Below, piece after piece: positions 25,525 through 28,287 of a DNA stretch of 64,000 nt. Each line of letters starts with the position of its first letter. Within the stretch, counting starts at the first letter, position 1. Under the pieces are notes generated by a model. It was not told the DNA's origin. It ran no database searches and saw only the letters and a program-made list of their open reading frames with translations. Made by a program: the position numbers and the translations under genes. The stretch is from Microlunatus soli (lineage in GTDB: Bacteria; Actinomycetota; Actinomycetes; Propionibacteriales; Propionibacteriaceae). The DNA lies in assembly GCF_900105385.1 (NCBI RefSeq), contig NZ_LT629772.1:3038001-3102000 (forward strand), in the 5' to 3' direction.

Positions 25525-28287
25525 ATGGCGACGAGTTCTCCGGGATCTCCTTCTTCAAAGGGGACAGGCTTGGGATGGCCGAAGCTGCCACGGATCGGCA
25601 GGCTACTCGGATGGCCCCGTGTTTCACGTGAAACGCAAGGGTCGTCCGAGTCGCCGAGCGACGATGTTCCACGTGAAACGGCAACCGAAAGTGCCGGCCC
25701 GTCGGCGGCCGATTCCGCTGCTGAGCAGCGGTCCGAGCCACCGGCGAAGCCTGCGGCCGCCGGCCCGGCAACACGCACCGAGAGTTCAACGGAACCGGCC
25801 GGCTCTGACAGTGACCGGGACGCCGGATCCACCGATCCGGATACGAACGGGGAGTCGGACGGCGGTCATCAGTCCGATGGCGCAGCTGACATGCCCGGCG
25901 ACGGCGATCCAACCGATGCTTCGACGCTGAATCCGGAACCCTCAGGCGAAGCAGCAAAGCAGGGGTCGCCGGCCGGATTGCCTATGCCCGGGCGACCGGT
26001 ATCTGGAGCGTCGGCCGGCACCGCATCCGCGACAGCCGATGAGGCACCGGATCCGTCGACGGCGCGCTCGTCCGTGGCGGAAGGTCCCTCGCTGCAGACT
26101 GCCAAGGCTGATTCGACACCCGCCGAGCCGCGGCGCGATCAGGGCGGACCGAACAACGAGTCGAAGGTCGAATCGGCACCGCCGGCTCAGCAGGGGGCCG
26201 TGCCGGGCGCTGGCAGTCCGACTGCCGCATCCAAGCCGTCGGCCTCGACTCCACCGACACCGGTCGAACGGGCGCCCGATGAGGAAGTCCGGACGGTGAC
26301 GGCCGCACAGGAGGGCGTCGACGGCGGCGGTGCCAAGGATGTGGCGAGCAGCGCGGGCGAACCGATCGCGCCCCCGCGACCTCGGCATTTTGCAGACCCA
26401 GCCGACGGGAACTCCTCGGAGGTCATCAGTTCCGCAGATCCGGATGATCAGGCAGACAAGCCCAGCGACGACCTGCCGATCGCCCCGCGTCGCGCTGCTC
26501 TCGAGGAACCCCCGAGTTCCGATATCGCAGAACCGCCGCAGCCAGAATCCGACGGCGCAGCAACGGCTCCCGCGGCAGCGGGAGCGAACACCGACGGCAC
26601 TCCGTCGGAACCGGGCCAGGCGGTGGATGGACCCGATGAGGCGCTCACGACTTCGGCCGACGACGCAACCGCTGCGGGCGGTCCGTCAACGACTCCGACC
26701 GGCGGGGCGACGGCGCCCGTGGGCGCGACAGCTGCGTCCGACTCGGCAACGCCTTCCGAGGCGGCAACGGATCGGGCCGCGGCACCAGAGAGTCCTGACG
26801 AGGTAGCTCCCCCTGCCGACGTGGCACCGAATCTCGACGACGTGGATACAAAGGCCGACCGTGCGGTTACGGCGATCGGATCGGTGGATTCATCGGATGC
26901 CGGGGCGGTTTCAGTCGCGAACCCTGAGGAGGACGCTGCAGGGCGCGCCGGAACAACCCGCATAGATCCCGATGGCGCCGAGGCAGGGCAAGCCGCAGGG
27001 GGACGGACCTATCAGGATGGAGAGGACTCTCCGCGCGGATCCGCCGCTGACTCCGACGCCTCGACGTCGCCCACCACCGCTCCCGGCGACAACGACGTCG
27101 ACAACGACCAGGACGGGGCCGAGGACGGCAGGTTGGCGGACGGCGAGACGATGCCATCGGCCGGAGGCTCGGAGGAGCCGCGCTCCGCTTCCGACGACAT
27201 TGATGCGACCCAGGCGTCGGTCACCGCCACCGCAGCTGCCGATGTGCGGGCGGAGACAACGGACGATTCCGTTGCTGACGCCCCGGCCACGGAACGGGTA
27301 CCCGGCAATCCCGAGTCATCACGTGCGGGAGATGGCGATACGCCTGGAGTCGTCGAGTCCGCAGCCGTGACAGCCGGCACGACCACGGAGGTTCGGACCG
27401 ACGTTGCCGAGGGCGAGAATGCAGACCGGGACCTCGACGCCGGGCCGGAGGATTCGGTTTCACGTGAAACGCCGACGGTGCCGAAGATGCCGGCGCCGAC
27501 GTCCACCCGGACCTTGGTGATCGCCAATCAGAAGGGCGGCGTCGGCAAGACGACGACCTCGGTCAACCTCGCAGCTGCCCTGGCCCTGGGTGGACTGTCT
27601 GTCCTGGTCGTCGATCTCGACCCGCAGGGAAATGCTTCGACAGCTCTCGGTGTCGACCACGCCTCCGGCACCAAGGGGACCTACGAGGTCCTGATCGATG
27701 GCGACCCGATTTCCGACTACGTGGTCGACTCGCCGGAGGCGCCGAACCTGCACGTGTTACCCGCAACCGTCGACCTCGCCGGCGCCGAGATCGAACTCGT
27801 CTCCGTCGTCGCCCGAGAGAATCGGCTCAAGCGCGCTCTGAAGAAGTACGTGGATGAGAATCCCGTGGACTACGTGCTGATCGACTGCCCGCCGTCCCTC
27901 GGGCTGCTCACCCTGAACGCGCTGGTCGCCGCGCGCGAGGTGCTGATCCCGATCCAGTGTGAGTACTACGCGCTCGAGGGCGTCTCCCAACTGATGAACA
28001 CGGTCGATCTCGTGATGGCCGAACTCAACGACGAGTTGGTGCTCAGCACCGTTCTGCTGACCATGTACGACGCCCGCACCCGGCTGGCGGCCCAGGTCGC
28101 GGACGAGGTCCGGGCATACTTCTCCGAGCAGACGCTGCCGACGGTGATCCCCCGCTCGGTCCGCATCTCTGAGGCGCCCAGTTACGGGCAGACCGTCCTC
28201 ACTTACCATCCCGAATCGGCCGGCGCCGTGTCCTATCTCGAAGCCGCCCACGAGATCGCCCGCCGCGGCGTGAAGGAGAGCTCATGA
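25525..28287 (+). CDS. parA: Chromosome partitioning ATPase ParA with giant disordered N-terminus
   Basis: 920 residues, against about 260-310 for typical ParA. Residues 1-655 are low complexity, rich in Ala, Asp, Glu, Pro, Ser, Thr and Gly, with no Trp or Cys and only a couple of Phe and Tyr after residue 60. The ParA core follows: KGGVGKTTT (deviant Walker A, near 668-676), VLVVDLDPQGNASTALG (Walker A'), YVLIDCPPSLGLLTLNAL (Walker B), ending ISEAPSYGQTV. ParA moves ParB-parS complexes to segregate origins. Three parS sites are inside the frame, each read as V(S/P)RET (codons 33-37, 48-52, 645-649). The ATG at 25525 is chosen over TTG 25522. The stop overlaps parB by 4 nt. Confidence 0.85.
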   Translation: MATSSPGSPSSKGTGLGWPKLPRIGRLLGWPRVSRETQGSSESPSDDVPRETATESAGPSAADSAAEQRSEPPAKPAAAGPATRTESSTEPAGSDSDRDAGSTDPDTNGESDGGHQSDGAADMPGDGDPTDASTLNPEPSGEAAKQGSPAGLPMPGRPVSGASAGTASATADEAPDPSTARSSVAEGPSLQTAKADSTPAEPRRDQGGPNNESKVESAPPAQQGAVPGAGSPTAASKPSASTPPTPVERAPDEEVRTVTAAQEGVDGGGAKDVASSAGEPIAPPRPRHFADPADGNSSEVISSADPDDQADKPSDDLPIAPRRAALEEPPSSDIAEPPQPESDGAATAPAAAGANTDGTPSEPGQAVDGPDEALTTSADDATAAGGPSTTPTGGATAPVGATAASDSATPSEAATDRAAAPESPDEVAPPADVAPNLDDVDTKADRAVTAIGSVDSSDAGAVSVANPEEDAAGRAGTTRIDPDGAEAGQAAGGRTYQDGEDSPRGSAADSDASTSPTTAPGDNDVDNDQDGAEDGRLADGETMPSAGGSEEPRSASDDIDATQASVTATAAADVRAETTDDSVADAPATERVPGNPESSRAGDGDTPGVVESAAVTAGTTTEVRTDVAEGENADRDLDAGPEDSVSRETPTVPKMPAPTSTRTLVIANQKGGVGKTTTSVNLAAALALGGLSVLVVDLDPQGNASTALGVDHASGTKGTYEVLIDGDPISDYVVDSPEAPNLHVLPATVDLAGAEIELVSVVARENRLKRALKKYVDENPVDYVLIDCPPSLGLLTLNALVAAREVLIPIQCEYYALEGVSQLMNTVDLVMAELNDELVLSTVLLTMYDARTRLAAQVADEVRAYFSEQTLPTVIPRSVRISEAPSYGQTVLTYHPESAGAVSYLEAAHEIARRGVKESS
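25620..25635. other. parS centromere site 1
   Basis: TGTTTCACGTGAAACG, one base from the consensus TGTTTCACGTGAAACA. Read in the parA frame as VSRET at codons 33-37. Confidence 0.9.
25665..25680. other. parS centromere site 2
   Basis: TGTTCCACGTGAAACG, two changes from consensus. Read in the parA frame as VPRET at codons 48-52, 45 bp downstream of site 1. Confidence 0.85.
27456..27471. other. parS centromere site 3
   Basis: GGTTTCACGTGAAACG, full GTTTCACGTGAAAC core. Read in frame as VSRET at codons 645-649, just before the ATPase core. Confidence 0.88.

Follow-up and report, generated by a model that had tools for sequence, protein, structure and literature searches.

The chromosomal partition gene parA of Microlunatus soli encodes a 920-amino-acid protein in which an ordinary ParA ATPase core follows an acidic tail of 655 residues that is predicted to be disordered. 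The tail carries a conserved tandem Gly-Trp-Pro (GWP) motif at its free end, and its coding sequence holds three copies of the centromere site parS. The gene occupies positions 25525–28287 on the forward strand of the window, which is the whole 64,000-nucleotide stretch analyzed here (contig NZ_LT629772.1, positions 3,038,001 to 3,102,000), as a single ATG-started open frame. The layout of a conserved free-end peptide, an acidic disordered linker, and a motor is the reason for reading the tail as a tethered docking peptide. The preferred reading, held with about even confidence, is that the tail is an acidic tether whose length is only loosely fixed and which offers a bivalent docking peptide to a partner, most likely a polar scaffold, for example DivIVA/Wag31.

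The product is a full-length chromosomal ParA, far outside the usual ParA length of about 260–310 amino acids. Its core (residues 656–920; 27490–28284, forward strand) matches Pfam AAA_31 (PF13614) over residues 662–838 with an E value of 4e-59. The AAA_31/CbiA domain is present together with the deviant Walker A sequence KGGVGKT (residues 670–676), which is invariant in 20 aligned rows. The predicted core fold is that of ParA/Soj, with a TM-score of 0.93 on 9a6n_A and 0.92 on 8ray_A. The context is also that of chromosomal partition, with parS nearby and parB (28284–29309, forward strand; TIGR00180, E 2.4e-55) overlapping the parA stop codon. ParA forms an ATP-dependent dimer on the nucleoid, which is released by ParB. 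ATP-dependent DNA binding and ParB-stimulated hydrolysis are traits of the class, and they are predicted from sequence for the 920-residue protein. In the AlphaFold model, 10-residue blocks of residues 1–650 have a mean predicted local distance difference test (pLDDT) of 28–48 without secondary structure, and the core mostly reaches 76–96. The model was run on a 20-row alignment that is shallow over the tail and contains the GWP pair only in the window's protein and L058, with a variant in L052. Residues 1–655 are predicted to be disordered and residues 656–920 to form an ordinary ParA/Soj ATPase. The open frame, the AAA_31 match, and the pLDDT values agree with an earlier note on this DNA, which had described a low-complexity, disordered tail of about 655 residues. 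Tail composition is dominated by Ala, Pro, Ser, Asp, Gly, Thr, and Glu, with one Phe, one Tyr, and two Trp. The note had reported neither Cys nor Trp; Cys is indeed absent, but tryptophan is present at residues 18 and 30.

No tail residues are better conserved than these two tryptophans, each of which lies within LGWP. They belong to a tandem motif, LGWP-KLPRIGRL-LGWP, at residues 16–31 (25570–25617, forward strand), which was identified by alignment and by profile. G-W-P is invariant in both copies across 23 aligned sequences; these are 23 of 35 candidates, and the 12 omitted include two LGYP genomes and six f2 genomes with wider spacing (families other than the window's own are labeled f2, f3, and so on, and the window's own family is f1). 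Among the 122 copies in 61 motif-bearing tails, LGWP occurs 92 times, VGWP 13, IGWP 12, LGYP 3, and VGWL and VGWQ once each, so the motif is not strictly invariant across carriers. The start-to-start spacing of the two copies ranges from 12 to 42, and 12 is the commonest. Synonymous codons are varied, both for Gly (GGC 54, GGT 29, GGA 25, and GGG 14) and for Pro (CCG 63, CCC 40, CCT 11, and CCA 6), and the pattern did not recur in 12,922 further downstream tail residues. Therefore, the GWP motif is under protein-level constraint. The ParA of the window belongs to the proposed tandem-GWP group, having two [LIVFM]G[WY]P-type motifs in the ParA open frame 5' of the core and a net-negative, aromatic-poor linker. 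In its own genome the motif profile gives an E value of 1.4e-10 at this gene; the other matches were set aside because the best of them was partial, with an E value of 0.011.

Four lines of evidence establish that the tail is coded, namely the period-3 signal, the absence of stops, a protein-like composition, and the in-frame GWP pair. Measured over all four bases, the period-3 signal of the tail reaches 41.0, against shuffles that average 1.01 and peak at 4.0. For comparison, the signal is 24.0 in the core, 15.8 in parB, and 0.65 in the stretch 29310–30270. No stop codon interrupts the 655 tail codons; in 2000 dinucleotide shuffles that frame always contained at least one stop (mean 8.8), and in a second set of 2000 a stop-free frame among the six arose only once. 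Compared with the shuffled-DNA expectation, the tail has 32 Arg vs 120, no Cys vs 10, and 74 Asp vs 35. The tandem motif was found in some forward frame 5' of the core at 64 of 217 loci, and at 61 of these it lies in the ParA open frame. The other three are G012, G051, and L064. In G012 (L010) the GWP head and the ParA core are in different frames, and in G051 (L172) the frame of the head stops before the ParA frame resumes; the broken tails of G012 and G051 may be sequencing errors or natural tail splitting. The nonsynonymous rate (dN) of the tail is below the synonymous rate (dS) in 30 of 30 pairs, by a biased codon alignment with near-saturated dS. All four gap runs that separate G155 from its close relatives (G164, G167, and G195) are of 3 bases. 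Assembly error was rejected as the origin of the tail, as the genome is a single contig and the relative G003 shows the same organization independently, its pair and core being 462 residues apart. Growth by tandem repeats was also set aside, because Tandem Repeats Finder returned only two arrays, both at the threshold score of 30.

The 217 loci comprise 119 from f1, 6 from f2, 13 from f3, 8 from f4 (another family of the same order), 40 genomes from 26 further families of the class, and 31 named actinobacterial loci. Of the 134 matching f1 genomes 119 were used, and the f2, f3, and class genomes were chosen to span families with a leaning toward long open frames, so the sampling is not random. 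Family f1 is Propionibacteriaceae, as the core of L057, from a Propionibacteriaceae contig, is identical to the f1 core of G112. The GWP pair is carried by 29 of 119 f1 loci, 6 of 6 f2, none of 13 f3, 8 of 8 f4, members of 11 of the 26 further families, and 2 of the 31 named loci, which amounts to 14 of 30 actinomycete families. Single or variant copies, such as LGWF...LGWV in L052 and those in G230, G238, and one f19 genome, are uncounted. The pair is absent from the eight Streptomyces loci and two f18 genomes examined. On an unrooted tree of 215 cores, with G012 and G051 scored as carriers, the GWP label requires 21 changes vs 54.5 in shuffles, and none of 500 shuffles was as low. The motif is thus clustered on the core tree, whether by gain or by loss. 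As a separate observation, in two f28 loci (L289 and L290) about 400 open-frame residues precede the core, and a single RGWF(R/H) close to the N-terminus takes the place of the GWP pair.

The three parS sites within the gene are read in one frame as V(S/P)RET at codons 33, 48, and 645, as the earlier note had stated. The exact palindrome GTTTCACGTGAAAC encodes VSRET at codons 33–37 (25621–25634), GTTCCACGTGAAAC, with one mismatch, encodes VPRET at codons 48–52 (25666–25679), and a second exact palindrome encodes VSRET at codons 645–649 (27457–27470), all on the forward strand. The 6.73-Mb single contig has three sites within one mismatch of parS, all of them inside this gene. The positions stand, but the shared frame proves less than it may seem to, because one frame of parS contains a TGA, which leaves just two usable readings, of the V(S/P)RET and the FHVK type. 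The 217 loci have 262 sites 5' of the core, of which 234 follow the V(S/P)RET frame and 28 the FHVK frame; some of these 28 may precede the true start. V[SP]R[EG]T occurs 173 times in the open frame before the core, at 146 loci; 131 of these peptides are encoded by exact parS, 38 by parS with one mismatch, and 4 with two. Their codons are nearly uniform, with GTT in 172, CGT in 171, and TCA or CCA and GAA or GGA in all 173, vs a background in the cores of 7.6% GTT among Val codons and 13.7% CGT among Arg codons. The peptide varies with the half-site (TTTCA or TTCCA) and therefore follows the DNA. To judge by these sequences, parS is constrained as DNA and the V(S/P)RET peptide appears to be a by-product.

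In the genus of the window, 18 of 20 genomes (some of them drafts) have sites within one mismatch. Of their 34 sites, 30 fall within the open ParA frame ahead of the core, 1 lies in the frameshifted G012 tail, and 3 are outside (1 in G009 and 2 in G019). In the same order, 56 of 57 genomes have sites, with 1 to 8 each. When ParA lengths and VSRET positions are compared among relatives, as the note had suggested, long tails recur, and the sites usually stand behind the GWP pair and before the core. In the 29 motif-bearing f1 tails, V[SP]R[EG]T follows the start of the second GWP motif at a distance of exactly five residues in 18, and it precedes the core by 6–12 residues in 18. G006 has both positions only 96 residues apart. 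Since relatives have these two usual positions, the long linker opened between pre-existing sites. The idea that a short parS-bearing N-terminus was split and expanded is right about an older N-terminus that lengthened and probably wrong about a single one that split, as relatives usually have both positions.

Together with these data, the following mechanism can be proposed. The core would do the usual work of ParA as an ATP-dependent, nucleoid-bound dimer released by ParB. The GWP pair at the free end would dock bivalently on a partner away from the nucleoid, and ParA would alternate between nucleoid and pole. A docking role is probable for the pair. The partner may be a coiled-coil scaffold at the pole, of the DivIVA/Wag31 type, a guess that falls a little short of an even chance. 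The acidic disordered tether may also hold the docked end off DNA, although an effect on DNA binding is rather unlikely. With parS nested in the coding sequence of the tether, the centromere would sit within the gene of its own motor. Pole anchoring, suggested earlier for the tail, is still the best inference and now has a defined GWP motif behind it, with the partner itself conjectural. Mycobacterial reports on ParA and DivIVA are the reason for assigning the GWP pair a similar job. In Mycobacterium smegmatis, DivIVA is reported to be bound by the N-terminal region of ParA, and altering the third residue of that protein abolishes the interaction (PMC9298525). DivIVA and the nucleoid have been proposed to compete for ParA (PMC10714820), and a DNA-binding mutant of ParA accumulates at the poles (PMC9298525, PMC10714820).

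Several observations weigh against the tethered docking peptide. Sixteen of the 30 families, in the genomes sampled, lack the GWP pair, and therefore the motif is dispensable in evolution. The pair was not found in three f7 genomes; f7 groups with Tomitella and is, we assume, probably the mycobacterial family. M. smegmatis ParA itself is reported to bind DivIVA, yet this probable mycobacterial family is without the pair. In that report, another ParA did not gain DivIVA binding from the first 20 residues of the M. smegmatis protein (PMC9298525). The AlphaFold pLDDT of residues 11–40 is only 34–40, with little alignment depth. The indel comparison says little either way; 22 of the 107 gap runs had lengths divisible by three, but most of the alignments were too divergent to be reliable. 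The GC content at third codon positions (GC3) is 0.68 in the tail vs 0.86 in the core, and it is likewise 0.68 in the background stretch 29310–30280. This drop is common to the nine long tails checked (0.65–0.73 vs 0.79–0.92 in their cores). The earlier note had proposed GC3 periodicity as a check on coding; GC3 does fall to background and taken alone would have misled, but the four-base period-3 signal remains strong, and coding stands on it.

The best-surviving alternative is that tail length is neutral. Selection would then maintain the GWP pair, the core, and parS, and the linker would drift as long as it stayed disordered and in frame; this is compatible with docking, and it is unlikely without being far-fetched. 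The linker (residues 53–644; 25681–27456, forward strand) can hardly be aligned to that of the nearest relative, G003, with 33% identity, 202 gap columns, and a tail dN of 0.80 vs 0.08 in the core. The distance from pair to core is 640 residues in the window, 462 in G003, and 163 in G004, all near relatives, and it spans 51–1573 residues over the 61 motif-bearing tails. The window's tail is the fifth longest, behind four f4 genomes (G157, G160, G163, and G172), and its open upstream frame of 670 codons is the longest among the 119 f1 genomes, followed by G003 with 479. Lengthening took place in this lineage and independently in others. Against neutrality, the four f4 genomes are all at 1329–1573 residues, and net charge and composition are maintained in 52 of the 53 tails of measurable length. 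Those 52 are net negative; the mean is -0.123 per residue (sd 0.05), with 1.4% aromatic residues, and charge per residue is unrelated to length (r 0.04). The central 596 residues of the window's linker have a net charge of -0.138 per residue and 0.34% aromatics. Thus, bulk charge and composition are held, and sequence and length are not. The f4 loci L225–L228 have ParA open frames of about 1700–1900 codons, and a mid-tail Trp-containing island, RSAVDRARGRVSQIFSTWRPTIE...YGLDVLVPKHLG, is common to the two f4 tails compared, within the disordered region; it is perhaps a second docking site.

Another possibility is that the GWP pair docks on ParA itself, on the same or a neighboring chain, where it would act as an autoinhibitory or bridging arm. 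The flexible linker with its tandem motif would fit this, no external partner is known, and cores that carry the motif differ in residue composition from those that lack it, most at positions 833, 856, and 872. These differences are partial and confounded by descent, and core positions covarying with the motif were set aside as weak for the same reason. A linker of 51–1573 residues would alter local concentration greatly, and AlphaFold places the motif without confidence at the available depth. Self-docking is accordingly judged improbable.

That the insert is a DNA spacer, setting parS sites apart for ParB loading or spreading with the protein tail as a passenger, is less probable still. It finds some support in the arrangement of the parS sites, two before the 1.8-kb linker and one after it, and in the confinement of the genome's sites within one mismatch to this gene. 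However, the six f2 genomes have their tail sites within one mismatch 112–124 codons before the core, and the variable part of their 199–466-residue tails lies outside any tail parS interval; the GWP motif is moreover constrained as protein. The idea that the tail drives condensates with ParB was suggested by its long low-complexity sequence and is very improbable, because the net-negative, low-Arg linker with 0.34% aromatics offers few stickers for self-association. That the tail is not made at all, with a start near codon 655 (ATG, 27487–27489) giving an ordinary ParA of about 266 residues, is rejected as a whole account on period-3, stops, and the in-frame motif, despite the background GC3 and an ATG directly before the core here and in G003, G004, and G012, since that codon is ATG in only 8 of 146 loci. 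A second, short ParA product may nevertheless exist in the clade of these four genomes.

Extended beyond this gene, the tethered docking peptide leads to a tentative generalization, which we rate below an even chance. Actinomycete ParAs may be two-site tethers, in which a GWP peptide on an acidic arm of 50–1570 residues hands the motor over between the nucleoid and a polar partner. In the window's genus, where 30 (or 31) of 34 centromere sites lie inside the gene of the arm, reach and centromere would evolve as one locus.

Other features were observed around these elements. A PRRAxF(D/E)-like motif is frequent in f1 about 30–40 residues ahead of the core, just before the last parS, also in members without the GWP pair. 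PRRA at residues 321–324 (26485–26496, forward strand) is a possible relic of it, with uncertain homology. A parS-like palindrome with two mismatches, GTTCCACGTGGAAC, lies outside parA at 30258–30271 (no strand assigned), about 0.95 kb after parB, and this variant also occurs in the tails of three relatives as VPRGT. No RNA family reached its gathering score in a scan of 24000–31000. Elsewhere in the genome, at contig position 4722618, L002 is another ParA-like protein; it shares 43% identity with the core and has a Pro/Gln-rich N-terminal open stretch of about 190 residues, without the GWP pair. A TetR-family gene (24676–25254) lies between rsmG and parA. Its relatives are directly 5' of parA in G004 and G012 and elsewhere in the other seven genomes that have one; the gene was therefore rejected as part of the system, adjoining parA in only 3 of 10 genomes. 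The M. smegmatis TetR-family protein PapM is reported to bind ParA and DivIVA (PMC10714820).

The ParA core, parS within the gene, and short actinomycete extensions are already known, and the GWP pair and the giant tail appear to be new. In the literature found, mainly abstracts and partial texts, there is no account of the GWP motif or of such long tails in ParA. The finding bears on the coupling of chromosome segregation to polar growth in actinobacteria. If true, a shared docking peptide of ParA would be a testable handle, consisting of two tryptophans, in many genera. Borne by nearly identical motors, the tails of 51 to 1573 residues form a natural tether-length series suited to the study of length and charge tuning. 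A centromere within the gene of its motor is also a clear case of superposed codes, with DNA governing V(S/P)RET and protein governing GWP.

Compared with known systems, the core resembles the solved chromosomal ParA/Soj proteins (8ray, 9a6n, Thermus thermophilus Soj 2bej/1wcv, and Helicobacter pylori Soj 6iub) in sequence and fold, and the parA-parB order with parS is also alike. By sequence, 8ray_B matches the core with an E value of 1.5e-74. Those chains have 253–276 residues without a long tail, whereas 655 residues precede the core here. In Corynebacterium glutamicum, DivIVA is reported with ParB. M. smegmatis ParA is likewise an actinomycete ParA with an extension before the core, and an N-terminal element is reported to recruit it to the polar scaffold; its extension has 20–25 residues (PMC9298525), in contrast to 655 residues and a GWP pair here. 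An N-terminal extension as in this DivIVA-binding type is thus present in M. soli, and by analogy DivIVA/Wag31 binding is putative. In Streptomyces coelicolor, the polar coiled-coil protein Scy is reported to recruit ParA (PMC3718342); this polar recruitment in an actinomycete is alike, but the Streptomyces loci differ in lacking the pair. The four giant-tailed f4 ParAs of the same order are also alike in layout; they share the GWP pair, the acidic tail, and parS in the tail, and differ in their greater pair-to-core length and their Trp-containing mid-tail island.

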